NCBI RefSeq assembly: GCF_036711975.1
Contig: NC_091966.1
Coordinates: forward strand, 39,005,501 to 39,069,500
Direction of reading: 5' to 3'
DNA from: Onthophagus taurus
Taxonomy: Eukaryota > Arthropoda > Insecta > Coleoptera > Scarabaeidae
Length of the DNA: 64,000 bases
The position numbers were made by a program, and so were the translations under genes. The notes under the pieces were generated by a model. It saw only the letters and a list, made by a program, of their open reading frames with translations. It did not search any database and had not been told where the DNA came from. Numbering within the stretch: position 1 is the stretch's first letter; each line of letters starts with the position of its first letter. Shown here in pieces: positions 15,898 to 62,155 of the stretch.

Positions 15898-17825
15898 ATC
15901 CAGAACTGAGTCAAGTGAAGAAAAATCCTTTCCAATATTTGGAGAACTAACATTTTCAAGTTGATATGCGGTACAATGTTTTATCACTAAATACTTTACA
16001 AGTACATACCAGATATGGTGCTTCTTGTACTACACAACAGATAGAGTAGTTTTAAGAAGGAGTAAACAGATGACTAAATCAGAGATGGAAAGGCGTTAGA
16101 AAAAGCTAACTTTAAAGAGTACTAAGAGAGCAGATAAGTGCAGCATTGTAAAGTTAATTTGTATGGCTGTGGTATGGCTGTAGATGTGGTATTGTTGAAT
16201 GAGAACTGTTAATTTTGTAACAAAAGCGATTTGACTTTTTGTCTTATCAATCATTGTCGAAATCATTAAAAAATAACAGTTCCTTTTTTTTTTCTATAAT
16301 ACCTGTCAAATTGTTATAAAGTTGTTAAAATTAACAGGGAGTTTTGTTTTATCATGTTTTGAAATAAATATGTCTCACTGACGTTTATTTTCTTCAAAAA
16401 GTCGTACATCGTTAAAATATTTATCTAAAAGTTTATTAATATTTTAACCTCAACTATTTAGTTACTAAAAATGTTACTAAAAATCAGGAAAACAACATAA
16501 ATTTTATAAGGGTCCTAGATAATACCAACAGAAACCCTAAATAATTTACATTGACAAGTATTATAGAAAAAAAAACGAACTATAGTTTCTTTTAATTTAT
16601 TTATATTAAAAATTAATCCTTTTAATTTTACTAATAGATGGCGTTAATTGAAGTGTGCAAAATGTCAAAATATATCTGTCAAATAAAATGTCAGTTTTGA
16701 ATTTCTTGTCATTTTTTATCTTTCCTGATATTAATCCTGAATTATTCAAATTTAAAACGGTTATTTCTAATTATTAACTTCAATTCCAGATTTTGTATGT
16801 TTATTATAGAATAAAAAACTTATAGAGCAGCGTACAATAAAATTTGACATTTTAACCTGTCAATGAACTTTTTTCACAATTTTTTCTGTTCAAATTTAAT
16901 ATGGACAAATCCATCATATTAAAGGTATTTTATTTATTTTAATTTTTACTCTTTTATTTGGGTATAATATAAAAATTCTTGATTCAACCAGTCCATTCCA
17001 GTTCTTTTATTCCTTCAATATACAAACAAATTAATCATTCGCATTTCCATGTAAAAAAAGGAACTATAACGATAAGAATTAAACCATTTTCTCGGTGCTT
17101 AATCAACCGAAATAACATAAATATCATAAATTCCGAAATATTGATTAAGTTCGTTGCTTGTAAACAACCAATTCTTTTTCTTTTTTAACATGCTAATAAT
17201 CACGTATTCTTTTTAATAATAATTAACGATTCTATGACGTCATTTGATTAATTAATGAAATATATAAACTTTAATAGAAATAAACCATCATCGAAATTAT
17301 ATAGAACAACAAAAGAATGTAAACATAACCAATAAAAGGTGTGGGATAGAACTCTTTTTATTAAATAATTAATAAAATTGATTTAAATATGTTTTCTTAC
17401 CAGTTTCTTGTTCTTAGAATTCGAATAAATCACAACTAAATATACCCATAGTTTGGGTACCAGTGCCCTATTTTCTAGAATCCGCAACACGATTTACGAA
17501 GGACGCACCATTATTATTCTTGCAGTCGAGGAGAACTAACTGCCTGCCAAACATGCCGAAGCGGAATAGAGAAACTTTACATATTAGAGTGGGAGAGAAA
17601 TAATTTTAACGTTTTTTGATAATATTTATATTTAATTTCAAATTAACAATAAATATTTATAATTCAACGACGTCCTCGAATTTCAAATCAAAATTATATT
17701 TCAATTTTAAACAAAAAATATATTTACAGTTTCCTTTTTAAATTGTTACATCAAAAATTAATAGATGTCACATTTCTCATTTGTATTTGACATAACCTTA
17801 AATTAAAGTGTGATGTAACCGGAGT
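15898..17825. other. AT-rich intergenic region upstream of the NDUFB1 locus
   Basis: No gene seen. Small AT-rich open frames (for example 16979-17188) have no motif. One TAGATGGCGTT motif lies at about 16635. The promoter of the NDUFB1 transcript should lie at the right end, near 17700-17829, but no core element is clear. Confidence 0.4.
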
Positions 17826-17829
17826 TTTC

Positions 17830-17979
17830 ATGACGGTTTTAGGCCTCATCAACAGATATTGGATTGTAACTACTTTTCCTACGGTAGTAATCTGCGCAAT
17901 TTATAGCGATTACTCGCGTACTCAACATTGGAAGAGTCAGCTATTAAGCGAGAAGAAAAATGTTGATGATTTTGCCTAA
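17830..17979 (+). CDS. 49-residue putative membrane microprotein overlapping the NDUFB1 start
   Basis: ATG at 17830 to TAA at 17979. The peptide starts 'MTVLGLINRYWIVTTFPTVV' and continues with a hydrophobic stretch (about residues 11-25, one possible membrane helix), then a polar tail with Arg, Gln, Lys and Glu. The last 20 bases overlap the NDUFB1 ORF in a different frame, so one mRNA probably carries both. Bases before this ATG (TTC) are a poor initiation context, while the NDUFB1 ATG is preceded by AAAA, a good one, so leaky scanning is plausible. I do not recognise the peptide. Its size and single helix would suit a mitochondrial inner-membrane or assembly protein, but this is inference from the partner only. 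It may be just an upstream ORF. Confidence 0.5.
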   Translation: MTVLGLINRYWIVTTFPTVVICAIYSDYSRTQHWKSQLLSEKKNVDDFA

Positions 17980-18130
17980 AGGATGGCCATGGATGGCGTT
18001 TCCCCTTGTTGGATATGGAATAGGATGGTTTTTGGATAGGAAAGAAACCGAAAGGATGGTGTTATTCCGCGATAAAAGTGCTTTGTATGGAAGGGTATTA
18101 AAGGAAGGTGAACAACCATCTTGGCCATAG
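17960..18130 (+). CDS. NDUFB1: NADH dehydrogenase (ubiquinone) 1 beta subcomplex subunit 1 (MNLL subunit)
   Basis: Intronless, 56 residues, matching the family's usual 56-58. It has a short N-terminus ('MLMILPKGWPWMAF'), a membrane segment ('PLVGYGIGWFL', about residues 14-25), then the hallmark 'DRKETERMVLFRDKSALYGR' and a Trp-containing C-terminus ('QPSWP'). NDUFB1 is an accessory single-pass subunit in the membrane arm of mitochondrial complex I, with no catalytic residues. The start is the ATG giving the normal family length. It is preceded by AAAA and lies inside the 3' end of an overlapping upstream ORF. A polyadenylation signal follows (AATAAA near 18180). This is the only one of three copies in the window with an intact N-terminus, so it is probably the functional gene. 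The segment after it (18241 on) is antisense to the KLHDC4 3' end. Confidence 0.85.
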   Translation: MLMILPKGWPWMAFPLVGYGIGWFLDRKETERMVLFRDKSALYGRVLKEGEQPSWP

Positions 18131-18345
18131 AATGTTTTAATTGATAGCTAAGATCTAAGCTATATAGATGTTTGAGAAAAATAAATTATAAATTAAGTAA
18201 AGAAAATGTTTTATTAATATTATTTAATAAAATTAGATTTTTAATCAGTTTCCATATCTTCTTTGCCTGACCCTTCATCTCCTTCTTCATTATAACTTCT
18301 ATCCTTATCCAATTCTGAAGCCATCAGAAGATCGTCAGCACTCCA
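18131..18345 (-). pseudogene. Duplicated KLHDC4 3' end (antisense fragment next to NDUFB1)
   Basis: The NDUFB1 3' tail (CTAAGCTATATAGATG then an AATAAATTATAAATTAAG block) runs into the reverse complement of the KLHDC4 C-terminal codons and stop (near 18245), ending about 18330-18345. Compared with KLHDC4 itself there are several substitutions, so it is not under the same constraint. It shows that the ancestral locus had NDUFB1 and KLHDC4 as convergent neighbours with about 90 bp between stop codons. Confidence 0.75.
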
Positions 18346-19959: not shown

Positions 19960-21427
19960 GTTAATCTAAAACGGCAAACAATTTATTTACTATTATTACT
20001 TCGTTAACACGATCCTCAGATATGTAATCCAATTCTATTACTGATTATTATTATTATCCTGTTATTGTTACTATTTTTCGGTCCACTAAGTTTTTGATGC
20101 TTTCTATCACTTTTTAACTTTACCTGATTCATTTTAACATTTCTGACATTTTATGAATTTTGGAACTCAACTTAATCTGACATTATTGATATTTTCAAGC
20201 AAATTTTATACTTACTTAACTGTTTTTGACATTTTTGATACTTTGAACCCAACACAATCATCTTTGATGTCTTCACAAATTGGATATTTCCAAAAATATT
20301 TAAGTTTTTGATGTTTTCTACCATTTTTTTTTACTACACCAGACTCTTTCCGACATTTCTTATATTTTATGACTTTAAGAACTCTACTCAACCTGACATT
20401 TTTGACAGTTTCTAGCAATTTTTATACTTACCTAACTGTTATCAACCCAACGTAATAATCTTTTATGTCTTCATAATATTTGTATTTTCAAGGATTTGTA
20501 AGTTTTTGATGCTTTGTTTCACTTTTTAATTTCACCTGACTCTTTTTGACATTTCTGAAATTAATTGAATTTATAAACTCAACCCAATCTGACATTATTG
20601 ATACTTTTTGTCAATTTTTATTAACTGTTTTATACATTTTTGACACATTGAACCCAACACAATGATTTTTGATGTCTTCACAAATTGGATGTATCCAAGA
20701 ATTTTTAAGCTTTTGATGTTTTCTGCCATTTTTTAACTACACCAGAGTCTTTTCGACATTTTTGATATTTTATGACTTTAAGAACTCTACTCAAGCTGAC
20801 ATTTTTGACAGTTTCTAGCAATTTTTATACTTACCAAACTGTTTTTGACATTTTTAACACTTTTTGACACTATCAACCCAACACAATCATCTTTAATGTC
20901 TTCACAATTTTAATATTTTCACGGATTTGTAAGTTTTTGACGCTTTCTTTCACTTTTTAACTTCATCTGAAGCTTTATGACATTTTTGAAATTATTTGAA
21001 TTTATAAACTCAACCCAATCTGACATTTTTGATACTTTTTGGAAATTTTTATTAACTGTTTTTGACACTTTGAACCCAACACAATGATTTTTGATGTGTT
21101 CACAAATTGGATGTTTCCAAGAATTTTTAAGCTTTTGATGTTTTTTACCATTTTTTGAATTTAAGAACTCAACTCAACCTGCAATTTTTGACAGTTTCGA
21201 ACAATTGTTATACTTATCAAACTGTTTTTGACATTTTTTGACACTATCAACTCTACACAATTATCTTTGATGTATTTGCAATTTTGATATTTTCAAGAAT
21301 TTTTAAGTTTTTGGTGTGTTCTGTCATTTTTCAATTTCACCTGATACTTTTTGATAATTCTGACATTTTTTCAATTTAAGAGCTCCACTCAATCTAACAT
21401 TTTTGATGTTGTCAATTCCTTTCCTTT
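19960..21427 (+). repeat. ~200-bp satellite-like tandem repeat (left array)
   Basis: Diverged units share the phrase AACCCAACACAATCATCTTT (near 20247, 20447, 20651, 20875, 21071 and 21249). Spacing is 178-224 bp, and two unit types alternate: one with CACAAATTGGATGTTTCC, one with CACAATTTTGATATTTTC. The alternation suggests a ~400-bp higher-order unit. The thymidine-rich strand is the plus strand here and the minus strand in the right array. Confidence 0.75.
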
Positions 21428-21800
21428 GATGACTTTTCCCCTTGTTGGATATGGATTAGGTTGGTTTTTGGATAGGAAAGAAACCGAAAGGATGGTGTTA
21501 TTCTGCTATAAAAGTGCTTTGTATGGAAGAGAATTAAAGCAAGGTGAACAACCATCTTGGCCGTAGAATGTTTTAATTGCTAGCTAAGATCTAAGCTATA
21601 TAAATGTTTGAGAGAAATAAATTATAAATTAAGTACCTAAAGAAAATGTTTTATTAATATTGTCATTTAATAAAATTAGATTTTTTAATCGGTTTCCATA
21701 TCTTCTTCGCCTGATTCATTATCTCCTTCCTCATCATCACTTTCACCCTCATCCGATTCTGGAATATTCCTGAGTTTCCTTATCACCAATAATCGTTTTC
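21428..21800 (+). pseudogene. 5'-truncated NDUFB1 copy plus antisense KLHDC4 3' fragment (copy 2)
   Basis: From about 21428 the NDUFB1 sequence starts abruptly at the 'FPLVGYGLGWFLDRK' part, lacking the first ~13 codons, and ends at TAG 21566. The conserved 'FRDKSALYGR' is changed to 'FCYKSALYGR', which removes the charged RD pair. It then runs through the 3' tail into KLHDC4 antisense sequence, which ends near 21800 (homologous to KLHDC4 from about 23691). The left boundary is satellite DNA, with the same junction as in copy 3. Confidence 0.75.
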
Positions 21801-22160
21801 TAGAAAGGGATTCCCTGATAGCAAACAAAAATTTACCTTCTTGTTCAAAAGCAACCGAAAAAAATACCTCTTGTATTCAGGACATTCCCTGAATAAAAGA
21901 AACTCCGTATAGTTACAACGCAGGGGATGCCCCAGGAACATTTTATACATAACTGAAATCAGTTACCTATAACCAATACACAATGAAGCTTGCCTGTAAC
22001 TGGTTACAACCTAAAATTATGCAACCTTACTAACACTAGTGTCAATACAGTTGCCTATCATTTAATAATATTAATTCATGATTTAACACCACGCGGATTT
22101 ACGGTGTTTTGGTTATTTTGATAGATTTCAATATAAACAATTTAATTATTAAACAAAAAT
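21801..22160 (+). promoter_or_regulatory. 5' flank of KLHDC4
   Basis: This covers the DNA between the duplicated 3' fragment and the KLHDC4 start codon. The promoter must lie here or extend into the inverted arm, because the arm ends at about 21800. No TATA box or other firm core element is visible. A poly-A-rich context (AACAAAAAT) precedes the ATG. Confidence 0.35.
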
Positions 22161-23816
22161 ATGGGGAAGAAAGATAAAAATAAAAAGAAAGGTAAAGGTG
22201 CGGAAAAAACGGCGGTTAAAACCGAAAAAAAGATGAGCTCAAAATTAAAAAAAGAACTTGAAGCTAAAGGTGAGGTGAGTTAAAAGATACAATAATTGTA
22301 AATTCATTCTAATTAACCACCTTATTTTATTTCTTAATAATGTAGGAAGACATAGAAACGATTCTGGCACAACTTGAAAAAGAAGAAAAAGCACGATTAA
22401 AAGTAACAGAAACTTTGGTTGAACCACCATCGAGAAGGTTAAATTTCAGTCTTGTTGCTCATCCGTTAAAAGAGGAATTAATTTTATTCGGTGGCGAATT
22501 TTATAATGGCCAAAAAGTAAATTTAACCTATTTCATTTATTGACATCTAAAATCCTTTTTTGTAGACTTTTCTTTATAACGATCTTTATTTTTACAACAT
22601 CCCAAACAACACTTGGACTATTTTAAAAGCACCCGGTGCCCCCCCACCAAGATGTAGTCACCAAATGGTGGTTAATTCAGTAAATAAAGGCCAATTATGG
22701 ATTTTTGGTGGTGAATTTTCGAGTCCAACTCAATCTCAATTTTATCACTATCGAGATCTTTGGTTATTTAATTTATCTGCTAAAACATGGGAGAAAATCC
22801 AAGCTCCAAATGGACCAAGTGCTCGAAGTGGTCATAGGATGGTTTATCATAAAAAAATGATCTTTGTGTTTGGGGGGTTTCACGATAATTTAAGAGATTA
22901 TAAATACTTCAATGATCTATTTTGTTTTAATACTGAAACATATTCTTGGCATAAAATTGAAGCCCCAGGAAGTGTTCCAAATCCCAGGTCAGGTTGTTGT
23001 TTCGTTCCTTTAATTGATGGAAAGCTTTTGGTTTATGGAGGTTATAGTAAAGAAAAATTAAAAAAGGATGTTGATAAAGGACATTTTTATACTGATTCTT
23101 TTTCATTGGTGCAAGATAAAAATGATCAAACTGGGTTAAAATGGAAATGGACCCAAACAAAACTTTCGGGGATTTCACCTTCATCAAGATGTAGCATGCC
23201 CATAACTATTGCACCAAATGGATATGCATATTCTTTTGGGGGCGTTTTTGATGTTGAGGAAGATGAGGAAATATTACGCGGGAAATTCTTCAATGATTTT
23301 TTTAGTTTAGATTTAGAAAAAAATAATTGGAGATTAATTACTCTGCAAAAACGTAAAGATAAAACTAAATTAAAACAGGAATGTTCTGAAGCAATGGACG
23401 AAGATGATAAAAAAGATGATGAAGAAGAAATTACAAAAGAAGAAACCACTACCATAGCTGATGATGGTGTTTTTAAGGTTACAATAGGCCCTGCTGCTTC
23501 AACTTCAAACACAACTCAGATGGAGAGTGGAAAAGATGATGATGTTTTCACACCTTGTCCAAGAATGAATTGTGGTTTAGCTGTCAAACATGGTATTTTG
23601 TATTTGTATGGGGGAATGTTTGAGGATGGTGACCGTCAAGTTACTTTATGTGATTTTTATTCATTGGATTTAAAAAAATTGGATGAATGGAAAACGATTA
23701 TTGGTGATACAGAAACTCAGGAATGGATGGATTCAGATTCAGAATCGGATGAGGATGAAAGTGATGATGAGGAAGGAGATGATAAATCAGGCGAAGAAGA
23801 TATGGAAACTGATTAA
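22161..23816 (+). CDS. KLHDC4: Kelch domain-containing protein 4
   Basis: Three exons: 22161-22274, 22346-22516 and 22566-23816, both introns short with GT...TAG borders and in phase, giving 511 residues (human protein 520). A Lys-rich N-terminus ('MGKKDKNKKKGKG') is followed by the conserved 'DIETILAQLEKEEKA' helix, then kelch repeats (about residues 65-430) with the double-glycine signature, e.g. 'LILFGGEF', 'LWIFGGEF', 'IFVFGGFHD', 'LLVYGGYSK', 'YSFGGVFD' and 'LYLYGGMF'. These form a beta-propeller. An acidic insert lies near residues 320-345 and a very acidic tail ends the protein. The molecular role of KLHDC4 is poorly defined; a propeller scaffold is the safest description. It converges on a truncated NDUFB1 copy and lies between inverted arms that are not present around ordinary genes. 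Confidence 0.9.
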
Positions 23817-23906
23817 AAATCTTATTTTATTAAATAATATTAATAAAACATTTTCTTAATTTATAATTTATTTTTCTCTAACATCTATACAGCTTAGCAA
23901 AACATT

Positions 23907-24045
23907 TTATGGCCAAGATGGTTGTTCACCTTGCTTTAATATTCTTCTATACAAAGCACTTTTATCGCGGAATAACACCATCCTTTCGGTTTCTTTCCTA
24001 TCCAAAAACCAACGCAATCCATATTTAACAAGGGGAAAAGCCATC
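23907..24045 (-). pseudogene. 5'-truncated NDUFB1 copy 3
   Basis: The minus strand reads 'MAFPLVKYGLRWFLDRKETER' through 'DKSALYRRILKQGEQPSWP' and stops at 23907. The first ~11 codons are replaced by satellite-derived sequence. Glycines in the membrane segment are changed (GYG to KYG, GIG to GLR), which puts charges into the helix and argues against function. Its 3' end faces the KLHDC4 stop codon 90 bp away, as in the presumed original arrangement. Junction with satellite is the same as in copy 2. Confidence 0.75.
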
Positions 24046-26170
24046 AAAGGAAAAGAATTGACAACATCAAAAATGTTAGATTGAAAAAATGTCGGAATTA
24101 TCAAAAAGTATCAGGTGAAATTAAAAAATGACAGAACACACCAAAAACTTAAAAATTCTTGAAAATATCAAAATTGCGAATACATCAAAGAAAATTGTGT
24201 AGAGTTGATAGTGTCAAAAAATGTCAAAAACAGTTTGATAAGTATAAAAATTGCTCAAAACTGTCAAAAATTATAGGTTGAGTGGAGTTCTTAAATTCAA
24301 AAAATGGTAAAAAACATCAAAAACTTAAAAATTCTTGGAAACATCCAATTTGTAAAGACATTAAAAATCATTGTGTTGGGTTCAAAGTGACAAAAAGTAT
24401 CAAATATGTCAGATTGGGTTGAGTTTATAAAGAAATATCAAAAGAGTTAGCTGAAGTTAAAAAGTGACAGAAAGCATCAAAAACTTACAAATCCATGAAA
24501 ATATCAAAATTATGAATACATAAAAGATGATTGCATTGGGTTGATAGTGTCGAAAATATCAAAAACATTTAGGTAAGTATAAAAATTGCTAGAAATTGTC
24601 AAAAATGTCAGGTTGAGTAGAGTTCTTAAATGCATAAAATATCAGAAATGTCGAAAACAGTTTAGTGTAGTTAAAAAATGGCAGAAAACATTAAAAAAGT
24701 TAGAAATTCTTGAAAATATCCAATTTGTGAAGACATCAAAGACGATTGTGTTTTTATTCAGAGTGCCAAAAAGTGTCAAAAATGACAAAAACAGACAACA
24801 TCAAAAATGTTAGATTGAGTGGAGCTCTTAAATTGAAAAAAATGTCAGAATTGAAAATATCAAAATTGCGAAGATATCAAAGATAATTGTGTAGAGTTGG
24901 TAGTGTCAAAAAATGTCAAAAACAGTTTGATAAGTATAAAAATTGCAGGTTGAGTTGAGTTCTTAAATTCAAAAAATGGCAGAAAACATCAAAAACTTAA
25001 AAATTCTTGGAAACATCTAATTTGTGAAGACATTAAAAGTCATTGTGTTGGGTTCAAAGTGTTGAAAAGTCAACAATGTCAAAAACAGTTAGATAAGTGT
25101 AAAAATTGCCAAAAAGTATCAAAAATGTCAGATTGGGTTGAATTTATAAATTCAAATAATTTCAGAAATGTCAATAAGAGTCGGGTGAAGTTAAAAAGTG
25201 ACAGAAAGCATCAAAAACTTACAAATACGTGAAAACCTGGGTATTTTCTGTCCGCACTGCAACTGTTCAGGCAAATAATTTCTTTATTTGTATAAAAAAA
25301 ATATGTAGGCAAAAATCAATTTTTCGATAATTTTATGATTGATTTATCAGGTTGAAGGTTTCGAACATTATCATGAATTGTTTATAAAATTTGTTGAGTG
25401 CATTAACAGGATGAAAAAACGGCCAAACCCGAAAGACCCACCTTTACAGACGGAAGGTGCTAAAAAAATGTTTACAGACGAAGGGTTAAAGATGATTGTG
25501 TTGGGTGATAGTGCCAAAATGTGTTAAAAATGTCAAAAGTAGTTTGGTAAGTATAAACATTTCTAGAAATTGTCAAAAAAGTCAGGTTGTCGAAAAGAGT
25601 CTAGTGTAGTTAAAAAATGGCAGAAAGCATCAAAAACTTAAAAAATCTTGGAAACACCCGATTTGTGAAGATATCAAAGATAATTGTATTGGGTTCAGAG
25701 TACCAAAAGGTGTCCAAAATGTCAAAAACAGTTAGGTAAGTATTGCTAGAAAATATCAAAAATGTCAGATTGAGTTGAGTTCCTAAATTCATAAAATGTC
25801 AAAAATGTTAAAAAGAGTCAGGTAAAGTTAAAAAGTGACAGAAAGCATCAAAAACTTACAGATCCTTGAAAATATCAAAATTATGAAGACATTAAAGGTG
25901 ATTGTGTTGGGTTCAAAGTGACAAAAAGTATCAAATATGTCAGATTGGGTTGAGTTTATAAAGAAATATCAAAAGAGTTAGCTGAAGTTAAAAAGTGACA
26001 GAATGCATCAAAATCTTACAAATACTTGAAAATATCAAAATTATGAAGACATAAAAGATGATTGTGTTAGGTTGATAGTGTCAAAAAGTGTTGAAAATGT
26101 CAAAAACAGTTAGGTAAGTGTAAAAATTGCTAGAAACTGTCAAAAATGTCAGGTTGAGTTGACAACTATT
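24046..26170 (-). repeat. ~200-bp satellite-like tandem repeat (right array)
   Basis: Reverse complement of the left array units: phrases such as GATTGTGTTGGGTTCAAAGTG and ATCAAAAACTTAAAAATTCTTGG recur about every 200 bp with unit alternation. Non-satellite sequence with a short open frame (25339-25527) interrupts it near 25240-25450. Confidence 0.75.
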
Positions 26171-33100: not shown

Positions 33101-36100
33101 AACTCTTACACAATCAATTGCTTCTTGTCCAAATAAAAATTTTCCAGCCATCCCAGCCGCTTTTAATAACGCTCTTTTAACAATTCCCTCATCTGCTATA
33201 TTTAAATTGATACGCAACAAACAATCAATAGCTTGCTTATGTTGACCGGCGAGGGCCCATTCATTTGCCTTTGAAAGTATCGTTTCTAAATCCATCGTTG
33301 AATCTTTCCCATGATTTGAAGAGCTATATTCAGCTTGAAGCGATGGTAAATGAGCTGGGAGATAATCACGGCAAACTCTTAAAGCTTCAATCCACATTTC
33401 TAAATCAAAAAACAAATTTTAATTAAATTTACTTTAAATTTAAAATTATTTACCTGAAGATTTATATTTTTGAACAATAATTTCAGGCATTTGAGCTCTT
33501 AATAACAACGATTCGAAATCAGTGTAATTCCCATCTGAGAAACAATGAAGTGCTTGGGCTTGTAAAACATCGGAAACAGCGGAAGGATCATAAGTTTCGG
33601 CCACTCTTAAGGCGTGAATCCAATTTTGACAGTGCGTATACATAAAAATGGCTTCTTTCGGTTTTCCGGCTGCGATAAATTCGCTTTCGGCTTCCGAAAA
33701 TTTCCCATCATCTTCCAAAGCCATTGCGTATTTATAATGAACCTCACTAACTTTTGATGGTAAATTTTTACACAATTGGAACGCAAAGTCGTATTGATAC
33801 GTTTCGCACGCATAATCAATACAGGCTTCTAGGATTCCGTATTTGTTTAAAAGTTTTATTGCCGAATCTATCGGTAGACTTCGTGACCAAAGAAAAGCGA
33901 CTTGATTTGCTGCGGGAGCCCCGCCGTTTTCTTTAGCTACTCGATACGATTCTTCCCAAGATCCTAGTGATCGATACATATTCATAGCTGATTTCCATTC
34001 GCCGACGGCGAGGAAATGTGCTTCGGCAGCTCTGTATTTTCCTTGCGTTTCCATTTGTTGCGCTAGATGCATGTGAGTTGTTGGGAGTAAATCGGGATGA
34101 TACTTTTCGACTAATCGAATCATGTTATCGTATTGCTCAGCTTTTTTATACATTGCAATCGCTAAATCGGCTTCGTCAACGGAGACGTATAATTTCTCGG
34201 CTTCTCTATATTTTCCTTGTTGTTCTAGTTCTTCAGCTTGTTTGATATACATGCTTATAACGTCGGCTGGGTCTAAATAAGCGGAGGCTATTGAGTGAGC
34301 TTTATCCCATTGGCCCGCTTCGTTGTACATAGAAACGGCTTCTTTGTACATTTCGGCTTTTATAAACATCTTTTCCGCTATGTTATATTCTTTTATTGAG
34401 GCGTAATGTTGCCCTAATGTTTTGTAATATTCTTTAACTGAATCAATATCGTCGATAACTTGGATGATATGAACAGCTTTTTTCCATTGTCTAGCGGTAA
34501 TTGCGGAATCTAAAGCTTTCATGGTTCGCCCGGCTTCGATGTAATGACTTATTGCGGCATCCATTTGTTTATTTTCAACTAAATAGTCTCCCCATTCTTC
34601 TTCTAAATCAACCACTTGATCTGGATTGATTATTCGGGCTAATTCAACGGCTTTATTCCAAACTTTTCCTTTTCTATAACATTCTAAAGCTAACTCGGTT
34701 TTATCGAGTTTTTTGTAAATTTCAGCTGCGGATTCAAATAATTCGTGCTTTAATAATTTTTTTAAAACGACCGCTACTAAACTGTGATCGGAAATTAACT
34801 CATTTTGTTTCAATAATAAATTAGACGCTCTAACTAATCGGTTTGATTTGACATACATCGACATTGCTTGTTCGTAATTTCCTTCATCCTCCATGATTTG
34901 GCCGACTTTTTCGTATTGCCCACCGTTTAAAAGTAACTTAACGTGTTCTTCTTTTAAATCTGTTAATTTATTGTAACCACTTTTCGTGGCTAATCGAATA
35001 ACGGAATCCCATTTATGTAATTTTTTGTACATATTCAAAGCGCCATCTAAATCCATTTGTTCTAAATAAATATTTTCGGCTGTATCTAAATTTCCGTTTA
35101 GCACGGCTAATTTAGCCCAAACTTCGGGTGATCTCCCCGGGCTGTTTTGATTCTCTTCAGACTCCTCCAACAAAAGTTTTTCGGTTTCATCCAAAAAGAA
35201 TACTTTGGAAATGTTTCCTAAACCCGCATAAGCCCGTTTAGCTAAAAATAAATCTTGATTTTTTAATCCGATGTTAACTAAGTTATGCCACATTGCATCA
35301 GCTTCTGATCCATTTCCCATTTTTTCTAAAAAAAGCACCGCTCTCCCATAATCATTATCATTTACAGCAGTTCCAAACTCAACTAATCCTTCATCTAAAT
35401 CAAATTTTATTGTATTACTCCCCTCAATTGTAATAACTTGAGTGCGCCCATTGTCTCGGATTACATCAACCACGTCACCTTTAACTTGAAGAATCGTTGG
35501 ATTTTCCGGTAAATCGATATTATACCAAACTGCTAAAGTATTTCCGGATTGAGCTACGGCTACATCGCTCGCTTCAACCCACTGTACGAAAGAAACCCCG
35601 CTAAATATACATTTTTTATCACTTGATAGTACCTCAATTAAAATTAATCTTTGTTTAACATCTCGAAACAACAATCGATTTCCGGTTTCGTTTAATTCAA
35701 GCCAATCAATTTTCGATTCATGATTGATCTGAGCAATAGTCACCCCGGTTATTAAATCCAAAACGCAAACCGTTTTCAAATCAAGTAAATAAGCAAGCTT
35801 TTTATTATCAACGCTCGAATTACGCTCGTTTAAACGCACACTTAACAAATGCGGATTTGCAAATTCAGTTCTTACAGAATACAAAACTTCGTTTATTCCG
35901 TATTCAATTAAGGATAATTCACCGGCGTTAAACGCCAAACAAATGTTTTGATTGTCGAAATAAAATTTTTCATGTCTTCCCGTATTCGTCCATAAAACTT
36001 CACTTACTAAGTTGTTGCGTAAATCACCAACAATAAGTGTTTCTGATGTTCTAGCTACCGCGTAATTATCTTTCCCCATTATTTTAATATCATCAATTTC

Positions 36101-39100
36101 TTTGCCATAATATGAATTAATTACTACGTTTGGGTAATCACCGTCGATTAATGGTTTTATTAAAATTTGACTTGGACCAACGAATGTTATTTCGTATTTA
36201 TCTTTCCAAAAGGTTCGTCTTAAAACTAAAACAAAAAATATATAATAAATATATTATAACATATTTGAATTTATCTTATTTTATATTTATAGTTATTTAT
36301 GAAATGTCCATTTTGATTTAAGTAAGATGTTCGTAACAAGTCTAGTGAAAGAGAGAAAACAAATTTTATTTATAGATGCAAAAAATAGAAATAAATTAAA
36401 AAAAGGGAGTATATAAATACAAAAAAAAGTTATAAATTAAAACTCAGCCAAAAATAGGGCTATCAACCGGAGTCTTTCTGCCCATACAAGTTCTAGTTAG
36501 CGGCAGCTTCAGTCTTTTCTGTTCATCAACAGTTTTTGAAGAAGTGGTGGTTTACTCTAGGGATAATGAGCATATGGTGGAGAAGATTGGTAGGGAAATT
36601 TAGGGTGGTTTTATGAGATAAAGATTGTATACGGGAAGTTAATGGGAGGGATATTAGTGAGGTTATAAAGGAGATCATTGCTAGGGTTGAAAAGAGGATT
36701 TTGGGGATTCCTTATTCGTGTTATAGACCTCAATGGCGATCTTTCTGCGACTTCTAAATGATGTGCTGATGTTCTAAGCGCATCGTTTAGAAGTATAGAT
36801 CCATATTCTATAATTGGTCCTATCACTGGCAGCAGTGAGATGGGGCGGTAATTTGCTGGGTCGGAAAGTGAGGAATCCTTCTTGGGGACGTAGATTATGA
36901 TAGAGGTCCTCCAGTCTTGTGGAAAATGTTGAGTTATGAGGCAGAAGTTAATTATTTCCCTGATGTAGGAGTGAATATCAAGGTCCAAGCTTCTCAACAC
37001 CTTTCTCGAGACGTTATCATAACCAGGAGCCGTGTTCTTTCCTTGGCCTAGCAGACTGAAATATTCGTCCTTCAGCATAATAGCATCTTCAGATGTTTCA
37101 GAGGGATTTATAAAAGCAAGTTGATACCAGTTGTCTATTGTGCTTTTGTTCTGGGAACAAAATGAGGCATTCTCAGCAAACGAAAATATTCCTTCCAAGC
37201 AGTCAGCATGGATGTTAACAATTCCTTCAGGGTTCGAATGTGCAGCTCCATCAGTGGGATCAGTGAGCTCTTTTATTTCAGAAAACTTTTGGTATCTAGA
37301 CAGTTTACGAACTTCCTGCCAATAATTTTTCCCCTTACATAAATTGATTTTGTTGCAGGCTTCCATATATTTCTCCGTTCTATGTTGCTGTACTAGTTTT
37401 TGTTGAGCTTGTTAAACTTATTTTTCAGTTCAGGAATCTCGCATGCTCTAAAGTCTCGGTACAGCCGTCTCTTATCTTTGATTAGGCGGATGATGAATGG
37501 TAGTAACGGAAAGGTGTAATATTTACAAATTCTAGATGGGCTCGCTTCGTCTACCGATTTCTTAAGTTTTTCATTAAACTTTGATATCACCTCCGGTGTA
37601 ATTACAGGATCTGCTCTTATGAAGTCTTTCATTGCTAAGTTGACTCTCTCCATGTTGCAAAGTTTGTAATTTTTAGTTATAGTTGGAGCAGGTTTAGATA
37701 ACTTTGATGTTGTGTTGATGTGAACAAGAAAACCCAGGTGGTCGGAGCACAGGTCAGGAACAACCTCTACTAAGATGATTAGATGTCTCAAATTTCTTGT
37801 GCAGAAAAACAGGTCTGGAGTGGAGTTCGGATTGTTCTCCATAACGTACGTGAGAGGTGTCTTGACAGAAATGTTTTTCTCTAATTATTTACCCTTACTG
37901 GAGACGTAGTTAATAAAGCGTTGACAATGGTCATCATTCAGGGTCTAGCTTTGCTCCAGTAATGATGCTTGATATGCTTTTTTAATCAAAGCCCTATAAG
38001 TAAAATTCTTCAGTTCTTTTGCGTTTTTGACTTCATCAGTTGGTTAGGCATTCCCAGAACCACGTTTTCTCTATATTTTTTTCAAATTACACTTTTTCAG
38101 AGCTCTACAATTTTTGGTTTGCAGCCTTTTGTTTCTAAATGCTCCATCGAGATCCATACCGCAAATATTGCGTCATTTTAATTGGCCAGAAATTCACACA
38201 TACAGTTCCTAATTTAATAATAAAACTTCCTTATTCAGTTAGGTGACAATGAAACGAATCTGAGTTTTCACACGTGAAATTAACAAAGCTTAGTTCTCTG
38301 CGAATTTGTAGCTTTTCTAATGGCGATCTCTTCCTGTGTATTGTTCAGGAACTTCCCAGCTTCGTTAAGAAGAGACATTACAATTGGATGCAATTATGTC
38401 ATCGGGAAAGTGTTTTTTGTATTTTAGTTTACGAAACGATATAATAAAAATTGTTGATATTTAGTCCAGGATTACTCTGGGTTTAGTTCTCTGCATTCCT
38501 CACTCGATGACATTTGCATTTAGATCACCCACCAGCAATTATTCAGGTAATTTTTCAGATAAAACATTCTTCAATTTCCGTTAGATAGTAACTAATAAAT
38601 GTAATCTGCTCTGTTCGAACCCAGATGAAACCTTCTCTCTCCTCATATTCTTTACACATTTAATATAAAAATGTTCCACCTGGTCCATATTTCTCTGGAC
38701 TTGAATCGTCCTCTAAGCCTTTTTCCATATACAGCTTGTTTAGAAATTCTCTTGGGAATTGCTTTATCCCTCATTTTCTCCGCATGACCCTACACAAGTG
38801 GCACACTTTTATGAAATTGGGGTCTAGATCCCCATATAATGCAGAGTTATAGCAACTTCGTCATTAACCATGTTCCATCCTGCCTCCAAATATGTGTTGC
38901 AGGATCTTTCTTCAAATGTCGCTAGCAATGATATCAACATCATCAGCAAAATCCAGATTTGTACGCTTTTGTTGATAATTGTGCGGCTGGTGTTGGTTCC
39001 CACATTCTGTATGACCTTCTTGAGTGCCATGTTGAAGAATATGCATTTATAATAGTATCATCCTCGCGTAACCTTTTATTTATTCTGAATCTAAGTGGTG

Positions 39101-58197: not shown

Positions 58198-58282
58198 ATT
58201 ACGGCAGCTCGTACGGAAAATAACCCAAAACGGAAAAATATATTTTGAGGTTAGGTAGAAGTAAAGTTGGCGGGAAAAGAAC

Positions 58283-61200
58283 ATGGATCTAGAAAAAGGA
58301 AGACATCCGTTGTTCGACGGAACAAATTTCGATAATTGGAAATTTCGGGTAATGGTTTTATTGGAAGAAAAAGAATGTATAAACAATTTAAAGGAAATGC
58401 CCGCAGAGTATAAGGTTGGAATTAATGATACAGTAGATGAAAAGACGAGAAAAGAAAAGGAAATTGAAAAATGGTTAAAAATGGATAGAAAATGTAAGTC
58501 ATTAATCACTCAATTGGTAGCTGATAGTCATCTCGAGTATATAAAAGACAAAAGTACGGCACATGAGATGTGGAAATCATTAACACTTAATTTTGAACAG
58601 AAAGGAATAGCTAATCAGTTATTGTTAAGAAAGAAATTACTAACTATGAAGCTTGATCCAGCATGTAAAACCATGGACGATCATTTCATGGAATTTGACA
58701 AAATCGTAAGGGAACTTAAGTCTACGGGAGCCACGTTAGAAGAATTGGATATTGTATGTCATCTTCTACTTACGATGCCAGCGGATTATGGTGTGGTGGT
58801 TATAGCGTTAGAAACACTCTCTCCGGAGAACCTTAGCTTGAGTTTTGTCAAAACTCGTTTGAAAGATGAAGAAAACAAGCGGAGATCTACAGAACAAAAT
58901 GGTAAAACGGAAACGCAACCAGTTGCATTTGCGACACCAGCAAATAAAAACAAATTTAAGTCAAATGAAATTAAGAAAAGCTTTCCATACAAATGTCATC
59001 ATTGTGGCAAAGTCGGGCACAAAAAGATTGATTGTTGGAAATTAAAGAATGAACGAACAACAAAGGCAGCAAATGTTGCGGACGCTGAAGAAGTGGAATA
59101 TAGTTTTTCGGCACACACTGATGGAATGAATCTAAACTGGTGTCTGGATTCGGGAGCATCAGAACATTTGGTTAAAGGAGAAAAGAATTTAAAGAACATA
59201 AGAAACCTAAAGAAAGATGTAAGAATCAAAGTAGCCAAGACAGGTGAGGAATTGATATCTAAAAGAATGGGTGATTTAAACGTAATATCAATGGTAAGTG
59301 ATCAAAAACATAAAATAACTATCAAAGATTGTTTGATCGTACCGGGGTTGGATATTAACTTATTATCAGTACGTAAATTAGAAATGAGTAATTTTACTGT
59401 AGTATTTGAAAAAGGAACAGGAAAAGTTATTAAAAATAATAAAATAGTTGCTATGGCAACCAGAACGAATAAGTTGTATGAACTTGATTTTATAAGTGAA
59501 AAAGAATATGGTTTAGTAACGATGCTGAATGAATCTGAAGTTGAACTGTGGCACAGAAGGTTGGGACATATTAGCAATTCAAATTTAGAGAAATTGAACA
59601 AGTTGGTAAATGGATTGAATTGTAAACCGAATGCAAAACTAAGTTTCTGTGAGACATGCGTAAAAGGTAAACAAACGAAACTGCCTCATAAACAAGAAAG
59701 GTATAGAGCAAAAAGACCGTTGCAATTGATTCACAGTGATTTATTTGGTCCAATAAAAGAGTCACACGATAATAAGAAATATGTATTAACATTTATAGAT
59801 GATTTCACTCACTTTACTGTAGCGTATGCATTGAAAGCTAAAAGTGAAACGTTTAATTATTTCAAGAAGTATGAGTCAATGGCTAAAGCGCATTTTAATT
59901 CTTCAATTAGCCGTTTTCGTTGTGACAATGGTCGAGAATACATATCAAATGAAATGAAAGAACATTTTGAAAAGCAAGGTATTCAGTTTGAATTTACGGT
60001 AAGGTATACACCGGAACAGAATGGTGTTGCAGAGCGGATGAACCGCACAATTATAGAAAAAGCGAGATGTATGTTGCTGGATACTGATTTGGAAAAGGGT
60101 TTTTGGACTGAAGCGGTTCGCTCAGCAGTTTATTTGATAAATAGATCACCTACAACTGCATTAGAAAAGGTTGTACCATCTGAATTGTGGTATGGACATA
60201 AGCCAAATCTAGACAAACTTAAGGTATTTGGTTGCACTGGTTATTTAAAAATCCCATCTGAATTAGTAGAGAGTAAATTTGCAAGTAAATCCCTGAAAGT
60301 ATTTATGATAGGTTACTGTCCAAATGGATATCGGTTATATTGTCCGAGTAACAAGAAAATATATACTGGAAGAGATGTAATATTCAATGAATTTAAATAC
60401 AATTTTGATACACAAAAATTAATTGTAAATGTTGACAAAGATGAAGTAAGTTCAGATGATGGCGAACAGGAAAGAATAATAGAAGAAAACATAGAACAGA
60501 AGATCGCAATAAAAGAGAACACCGAAACAGAAACAGAAGAACGAAAAGAAGCACGCCAAAGGAGAAGACCTAAATATCTAGATGACTATGCAGTGTACGC
60601 ATTGAATGCTGAAACATTTGTACATGAAGCTCCACAAGATTATGAAGAGATCGAAAATAGAGAAGATAAGAAACATTGGTTGGAAGCTGTTGATGAAGAG
60701 TTAAAATCTTTAAAAACAAATAATACATGGACGTTACAAGAATTACCAGATAATAAGAGAGCAATTGAAAGTAAATGGGTGTTTAAAGTAAAGAAGAATG
60801 AAAAGGATGAACCAGTAAGACACAAGGCTAGACTCGTTATCAAGGGATGTTCTCAACGGAAGGGATATGATTACAATGAAACATATGCGCCTGTTGCACG
60901 TTTGACAACCGTTAGAACATTATTGTCAATAATTAGTACTCATAATCTGTTTGCATACCAATTGGATGTGAGAAATGCGTTTCTGCATGGCGATTTGGAA
61001 GAAGAAATTTATATGAAAATTCCACAAGGAATAACTGAAAATTCGAATATGGTATGCAAACTTAACAAGACGTTGTATGGGTTAAAGCAGGCACCGAGAG
61101 CCTGGAATGAGAAGTTTAATAATTTTATAGTGACACGGGGATTTAAAAGATCTCAAAACGATTTCTGTTTGTACACAAACTCAAAAGAAAAGGTTTATTT

Positions 61201-62155
61201 ATTGTTGTATGTGGATGACATTATAATTGCAGGTCACAAGAAAGATTTTATGCAACAAACAATAAAAAATTTGAAAGACAATTTCCAAATGACAGAATTG
61301 GGAAAATTAAACTTCTTCTTGGGAATAAAAATACAAGAAACAACGAGAGGATTGTTTTTGTCACAATCGTCTTATTCAAGGTCACTTTTAAGAAAATTTA
61401 ATATGGAAGAGTGCAAACCATCAAAAACGCCAATTGACGCAAAATTGTATGATGAAAATACTGAAGGTACGTGTATTGTGGATGAAAAGCCTTATAGGCA
61501 ATTGATTGGCTGTCTGATGTATTTAATGCTAACAACAAGACCTGACTTGAGTGTAGCGGTAAATTATTATAGCCGCTACCAAAGTAATGCAACTGAAGAA
61601 CAATGGCGGGGATTGAAACGAATACTTCGATACATAAAGGGAACATTGGATTATGGATTGTTTTACGAACGATCGAATAAAAAGGAAGTGTTGGTTTCAT
61701 ATGCAGATGCCAATTGGGCGACTGATAGGGATAGAAAGTCAACGAGTGGATATATAATTGAAGTTTATGGAGCAGTGGTTCACTGGACAACTAGAAAACA
61801 AACGTCGGTGGCTTTGTCGTCGACAGAAGCCGAATATGTGGCCCTGGCTACGGCTGCTACTGAACTTATTTGGTTGAAAGAATTGTTAGACGACATGGGG
61901 GTTAAGATTGAGATTCCTGTTGTAATGTTTGAAGATAATCAGTCTGTTATCTACTTGTTGGACAAATGGGAGCATAAGCGATTGAAGCATGTTGATGTTA
62001 AGTACAATTTTGTGCGGGATTTGTGTATGAATGGGATTGTTGATGTAAAGTATGTTCCAACAGATAATCAAAAGGCGGACATTATGACAAAAGGTCTGAG
62101 TCACGGTAAATTTGTAGAATTCCGAACGTCTTTAAATATTGTAAATTCTTTTTGA
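58283..62155 (+). CDS. Copia Gag-Pol polyprotein
   Basis: A single frame of 1290 residues. Gag (~1-230) ends in a CX2CX4HX4C knuckle (residues 238-251, 'CHHCGKVGHKKIDC'). The aspartic protease has 'DSGAS' at ~289. The pre-integrase 'LWHRRLGH' zinc-binding region is at ~418. Integrase D486, D548, E584 form the DDE triad with 35 residues between the last two, as in the family. The reverse transcriptase has Asp 895 ('LDVRNAFLHG') and YVDD at 976-979. RNase H has Asp 1142 ('YADANW'), the Glu of 'SSTEAEYVAL' near 1188 and Asp 1218. Domain order is the copia type, integrase before RT. No stop, frameshift or missing catalytic residue was seen. The gag/pol ratio is set in copia by splicing, not by a frameshift, consistent with one ORF. 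A recently active element. Confidence 0.95.
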   Translation: MDLEKGRHPLFDGTNFDNWKFRVMVLLEEKECINNLKEMPAEYKVGINDTVDEKTRKEKEIEKWLKMDRKCKSLITQLVADSHLEYIKDKSTAHEMWKSLTLNFEQKGIANQLLLRKKLLTMKLDPACKTMDDHFMEFDKIVRELKSTGATLEELDIVCHLLLTMPADYGVVVIALETLSPENLSLSFVKTRLKDEENKRRSTEQNGKTETQPVAFATPANKNKFKSNEIKKSFPYKCHHCGKVGHKKIDCWKLKNERTTKAANVADAEEVEYSFSAHTDGMNLNWCLDSGASEHLVKGEKNLKNIRNLKKDVRIKVAKTGEELISKRMGDLNVISMVSDQKHKITIKDCLIVPGLDINLLSVRKLEMSNFTVVFEKGTGKVIKNNKIVAMATRTNKLYELDFISEKEYGLVTMLNESEVELWHRRLGHISNSNLEKLNKLVNGLNCKPNAKLSFCETCVKGKQTKLPHKQERYRAKRPLQLIHSDLFGPIKESHDNKKYVLTFIDDFTHFTVAYALKAKSETFNYFKKYESMAKAHFNSSISRFRCDNGREYISNEMKEHFEKQGIQFEFTVRYTPEQNGVAERMNRTIIEKARCMLLDTDLEKGFWTEAVRSAVYLINRSPTTALEKVVPSELWYGHKPNLDKLKVFGCTGYLKIPSELVESKFASKSLKVFMIGYCPNGYRLYCPSNKKIYTGRDVIFNEFKYNFDTQKLIVNVDKDEVSSDDGEQERIIEENIEQKIAIKENTETETEERKEARQRRRPKYLDDYAVYALNAETFVHEAPQDYEEIENREDKKHWLEAVDEELKSLKTNNTWTLQELPDNKRAIESKWVFKVKKNEKDEPVRHKARLVIKGCSQRKGYDYNETYAPVARLTTVRTLLSIISTHNLFAYQLDVRNAFLHGDLEEEIYMKIPQGITENSNMVCKLNKTLYGLKQAPRAWNEKFNNFIVTRGFKRSQNDFCLYTNSKEKVYLLLYVDDIIIAGHKKDFMQQTIKNLKDNFQMTELGKLNFFLGIKIQETTRGLFLSQSSYSRSLLRKFNMEECKPSKTPIDAKLYDENTEGTCIVDEKPYRQLIGCLMYLMLTTRPDLSVAVNYYSRYQSNATEEQWRGLKRILRYIKGTLDYGLFYERSNKKEVLVSYADANWATDRDRKSTSGYIIEVYGAVVHWTTRKQTSVALSSTEAEYVALATAATELIWLKELLDDMGVKIEIPVVMFEDNQSVIYLLDKWEHKRLKHVDVKYNFVRDLCMNGIVDVKYVPTDNQKADIMTKGLSHGKFVEFRTSLNIVNSF

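Follow-up and report, generated by a model that had tools for sequence, protein, structure and literature searches.

In the 64,000-nt stretch of Onthophagus taurus DNA analysed here (the window), the gene for the complex I subunit NDUFB1 is preceded by an upstream open reading frame (uORF) of 49 codons that runs into it in another reading frame. We consider it probable that the two make up one bicistronic gene, from which a single-helix microprotein is translated at a weak AUG and NDUFB1 by leaky scanning; the uORF would then be the counterpart of the uORF on Drosophila CG18624, and its product an accessory microprotein of the respiratory chain. The arrangement was already reported for Drosophila in 2008, and the locus described here is most likely another member; the main interest lies in what the peptide does. 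The features of the locus are as follows.

17777 to 17782, forward strand: initiator-like TCATTT (A+1 at 17779), candidate transcript start with a 51-nt leader, by consensus match only.
17813 to 17818, forward strand: start-stop ATGTAA in the leader, from the sequence.
17830 to 17979, forward strand: uORF with one predicted hydrophobic helix and a weak start context, from ORF, hydropathy and AlphaFold.
17960 to 17979, forward strand: overlap of the two frames, 20 nt, from the ORF coordinates.
17960 to 18130, forward strand: NDUFB1 (complex I MNLL subunit), 56 amino acids, from PF08040 and a PDB match.
18180 to 18185, forward strand: AATAAA, possible poly(A) signal, by motif; another at 18226.
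21429 to 21563, forward strand: truncated NDUFB1 copy without the uORF, from similarity search.
23910 to 24044, reverse strand: second truncated NDUFB1 copy without the uORF, from similarity search.

According to the ORF listing of the window, the uORF (17830-17979, forward strand, 49 amino acids, ATG start) and the NDUFB1 frame (17960-18130, forward strand, 56 amino acids) lie in different reading frames and share the 20 nt of 17960-17979, which confirms what an earlier note on this DNA had described, a 49-codon ORF ending 20 bases inside the 56-codon NDUFB1 ORF. In the genomic sequence the uORF begins upstream of the NDUFB1 start and is not fused to NDUFB1. The note's further claims of a poor context at the first ATG and a good one at the second (TTTTC-ATG-A, weak; GAAAA-ATG-T, good), and of a hydrophobic segment in the 49-codon ORF, likewise hold. 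The downstream ORF is NDUFB1: it matches Pfam PF08040 (E 1.4e-19; score 69.9 bits, cut-off 27) over profile positions 6-58 of 58, above the family cut-off and near full length, and its best match in the PDB is Drosophila NDUFB1 (8ba0_f, E 1.9e-16), the two aligning from residue 2 of NDUFB1 here with the 56-residue fly protein. Searches with NDUFB1 in the prokaryote and viral contig collections confirmed no relative, as expected there.

The interval between the two starts (17833-17959, forward strand) is free of AUGs where 2.4 would be expected (P 0.09), a number small enough to limit the weight of the finding; two occur on the opposite strand. With its weak first start, good second start and AUG-free interval, the locus fits the earlier proposal that the contexts suit leaky scanning. 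The candidate initiator TCATTT at 17777 is the sole TCAKTY match in 17600-17965 and lies upstream of the uORF, with no RGWYV downstream element at +28 from its A+1 (17779); from there to the uORF start the leader holds the start-stop ATGTAA at 17813 and no further AUG. A looser initiator match, YYANWYY at 17870, falls inside the uORF, so that a transcript start skipping the uORF is conceivable. The NDUFB1 coding sequence is a single exon in D. melanogaster, D. pseudoobscura and Anopheles according to the available text of PMC551531; as its exon counts cover coding exons only, the leader may contain an intron.

The NRG motif of respiratory genes, RTTAYRTAAY, is described in annotated insect OXPHOS genes, some substitutions being allowed (PMC2241641, available text). 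The looser pattern TTAYRTMA has 42 matches in the window (48 expected); those near NDUFB1, at 17746, 17788 and 17811, carry no weight, because all three read TTAYRTCA and depart from the core TTAYRTAA. Within 10 kb of NDUFB1 there are only these three variants and no exact NRG core. A sigma-70 promoter scan was also run, the result of which is not meaningful for an insect.

The strongest evidence that the upstream frame is more than a leader accident comes from the fly. Hayden & Bosco 2008 (PMC2276209) count the fly NDUFB1 gene, CG18624, among 44 conserved-peptide uORFs; in the portions of that paper available, its uORF is of 54 amino acids with Ka/Ks 0.11 (p<0.0001), the main ORF (mORF) has Ka/Ks 0.06, the most distant uORF-mORF association is an EST of the tick Boophilus microplus (CV448373), and uORFs that showed signs of being fused to the mORF were left out. 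The earlier note had made its interpretation depend on conservation of the upstream peptide, and this part is borne out for Drosophila, where the frame upstream on the NDUFB1 mRNA is under purifying selection, with the association reaching the tick EST; the interpretation as a whole is probably right in outline. The fly uORF resembles the present one in being an upstream ORF on the NDUFB1 mRNA that is separate from the main ORF, with 54 amino acids as against 49 here; the likeness is one of gene, side and length, the available text of PMC2276209 being silent on a hydrophobic half of the fly uORF and on any overlap with the start of NDUFB1. From same gene, same side and similar length we infer that the two peptides are homologous. 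In the open-licence literature, as far as its accessible text goes, no function is named for the fly NDUFB1 uORF peptide and no later work on the peptide was found; PMC4965872, considered as a source on an NDUFB1 uORF, was set aside, its available text being concerned with mouse Ndufb11.

The uORF peptide has a single hydrophobic stretch, at residues 12-26 (15-residue Kyte-Doolittle mean 1.83), and AlphaFold, run from the single sequence, predicts one helix over residues 3-48 (best-model pLDDT 84.9, range over five models 57.0-84.9, pTM 0.42); the predicted shape is consistent with a single-pass membrane protein. The earlier note did not recognise the peptide, and this stands: Pfam gave no match up to E 10, in a search whose HMMER filters discard most weak hits, and the PDB gave a single match, an irrelevant intein (E 0.38). 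No complex I chain in the PDB was matched at E up to 10. The viral contig collection confirmed no relative of the peptide, as expected there, and in its own genome (290.8 Mb, 33 contigs, as for all own-genome searches) the peptide matches only itself. COX14 (PF14880) is a possible identity; the peptide itself has no Pfam match to it or to any other family. PET100 (PF09803), considered for its likeness to the peptide, was rejected since the peptide gives no Pfam match, and is further excluded because the one PF09803 match of the genome (E 2.0e-26), which has no BLASTP similarity to the uORF peptide, lies on another contig (C10).

By eye, W, P, Y and D occur at equal spacing in the uORF peptide and in mammalian NDUFB1. 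The peptide was nevertheless rejected as an NDUFB1 paralogue, the similarity being not significant by BLASTP (no match), by hhalign (P 0.54; the profile was thin, Neff 1.7) or by shuffling: the score summed over five NDUFB1 sequences was reached by 205 of 3000 segment shuffles, and that of the best single comparison, with mammalian NDUFB1, by 159 segment shuffles and 112 plain shuffles, out of 3000 each.

Two proteins on one mRNA have precedents in Drosophila, among them stoned and Snapin, which are different proteins and not complex I subunits. Their first cistrons are poor in AUGs (Wall 2005, as described in the available text of PMC11892635), and the dicistronic mRNAs resemble the one proposed here in this deficiency of internal AUGs in the first cistron and in the diverged start context of that cistron, which the same text reports. 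Further precedents are Sloth1 and Sloth2, which act in complex III assembly: like the pair predicted here, they are two short single-helix proteins of the respiratory chain encoded on one mRNA. Their first Kozak context is weak and the second good, and leaky scanning is backed by reporter tests (PMC9681215, available text); the same combination is found here, where leaky scanning is proposed from sequence. The Sloth ORFs differ in lying 5 nt apart without overlap and in being alike (27%), as far as the available text of PMC9681215 reports, whereas the frames here overlap and the resemblance of the uORF peptide to NDUFB1 is not significant.

In the mechanism that we favour, a single mRNA would start upstream of 17830 and carry both overlapping cistrons. 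Part of the ribosomes would initiate at 17830 despite its weak context, yielding a single-pass membrane microprotein of 49 residues; the remaining ribosomes would scan past 17830, meet no AUG and initiate at 17960, giving NDUFB1. The uORF would thus be this insect's counterpart of the conserved-peptide uORF on Drosophila NDUFB1 (CG18624). Its shape and its mRNA partner suggest that the microprotein probably resides in the mitochondrial inner membrane and would serve the respiratory chain as an assembly or accessory factor, not as a stoichiometric subunit of complex I, and the common mRNA would fix its ratio to NDUFB1. A stoichiometric role would be unlikely, if the fly peptide is the same, because the papers on fly complex I report no fly-specific subunit: they give 43 subunits, NDUFC1 and NDUFA2 being absent (PMC10036122, PMC9977279), and in the available text one of the two finds no fly-unique subunit and the other finds mammalian counterparts for all 29 supernumerary subunits. 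Since these structures account for 43 subunits, a co-encoded microprotein is more likely an assembly or regulatory factor. A bolder version, which we regard as an unlikely possibility, is that of an arthropod-wide inner-membrane microprotein, missed by annotation, which is made from the NDUFB1 mRNA, serves the assembly of the distal membrane arm of complex I and may be a very diverged NDUFB1 duplicate; the last point refers to the W, P, Y and D spaced alike in mammalian NDUFB1, and its model is Sloth1 and Sloth2, which are proposed as duplicates of each other.

Taken by itself, the uORF is weak evidence, its length being mildly unusual and its codon usage no better than background, and a chance frame in the leader, or one outside the transcript, has to be weighed. 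The window has 816 forward-strand ATG ORFs, 51 of which reach the length of the uORF or surpass it, and 49 codons would stay open with a probability of 0.037 given the base composition of 17833-17959, or of 0.013 given that of 17600-17829. The codon-usage score, trained on 1904 codons from five long ORFs of the window, gives no coding support, because scores equal to that of the uORF or higher occur in 30 of 146 background ORFs and in 1041 of 5000 shuffles; the uORF frame scores higher than the two other forward frames and lower than one reverse frame, and NDUFB1 scores well above it. As none of the ORFs used for training is a known small membrane protein, the test is insensitive. The ordinary codon score, the number of ORFs of such length and the loose initiator match at 17870 within the uORF all speak for chance. 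Against it stands the GC content, which in 50-base bins is 0.10-0.24 over 17600-17799 and 0.36-0.42 over 17800-18149, followed by 0.18, 0.10 and 0.38: it rises at about 17800, just ahead of the uORF start, and drops after NDUFB1, and the GC-rich block spanning both frames is counted in favour of the uORF. The case is strengthened above all because a conserved uORF of comparable length is published for the orthologous Drosophila gene (PMC2276209, available text), and we hold a chance frame to be distinctly unlikely.

Unlikely, too, is a purely regulatory uORF, the translation of which would tune NDUFB1 output while its peptide would serve no purpose of its own. Overlapping uORFs generally reduce translation of the main ORF, and the peptide matches no known family; regulation is also discussed in the available text of PMC2276209. 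In the same study, however, the fly uORF shows conservation at the amino-acid level (Ka/Ks 0.11). A length of 49-54 codons, with a predicted hydrophobic helix in the present case, also exceeds what regulation needs; so weak a start would moreover presumably repress little. A very improbable explanation is that the uORF and NDUFB1 encode one longer product, of which the uORF supplies the N-terminal portion, a sequencing error having separated the two frames or a frameshift or splicing joining them. The PDB has a 135-residue pig NDUFB1 chain with its NDUFB1 match at 82-134, which points in this direction; NDUFB1 here, on the other hand, starts at a well-placed AUG of its own and is complete from there, its alignment with the fly protein beginning at residue 2, and uORFs with signs of main-ORF fusion were left out of the fly study (PMC2276209, available text). 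The bicistronic gene is the reading retained here as probable.

NDUFB1 occurs elsewhere in the genome. The own-genome profile search with PF08040 found four places above the family cut-off, among six matches at E up to 10. Two are the truncated copies of the window, in both of which the similarity begins at the base equivalent to 17992, leaving them without the uORF and without the first 11 codons; both have kept an open frame. Each copy differs from intact NDUFB1 at 6 of 45 residues, with dN/dS of about 0.35 (0.058/0.165) and 0.51 (0.073/0.142), and they differ from each other at 7 residues (dN/dS about 1.1, 0.088/0.080); these values, from 10-11 base changes each, would be compatible with relaxed or no constraint. 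Another contig holds a second NDUFB1 gene (C6:11296421-11296564; L005 1447-1641), which is intact and diverged (35 of 54 residues identical; dN 0.29, dS 2.7, saturated, against NDUFB1 of the window). With the uORF peptide as query, tblastn of the 3,107-base C6 locus reached E 0.84 at best, and none of the three frames in the 150 bases ahead of the C6 gene resembles the peptide; NDUFB1 can thus persist without the uORF in cis, if the C6 copy is expressed, a point that counts against the bicistronic reading. Farther upstream, the C6 locus gives the impression of being repeat-derived.

The 3' part of NDUFB1, together with the tail of a convergent kelch-repeat gene, makes up a segment that occurs in the window in three copies (17992-18317, 21428-21761 and 23738-24045), one of them inverted; two are 90% and 85% identical to the segment at 17992-18317. 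They point to local duplication, and an inversion perhaps parted the complete NDUFB1 from the kelch gene. The kelch-repeat gene has an open frame at 22566-23816 (forward strand, Pfam kelch) and is flanked by direct and inverted arrays of degenerate repeat units (20087-26162, self-BLAST). Elsewhere in the window, an unbroken frame of 1296 residues at 58265-62155 (forward strand) looks by eye like a Copia-type retrotransposon polyprotein, and a frame of 935 residues at 33446-36253 (reverse strand), with TPR matches (best PF23878, ELP1; also PF24762, IFT140/IFT172), gives the impression of an intraflagellar-transport protein.
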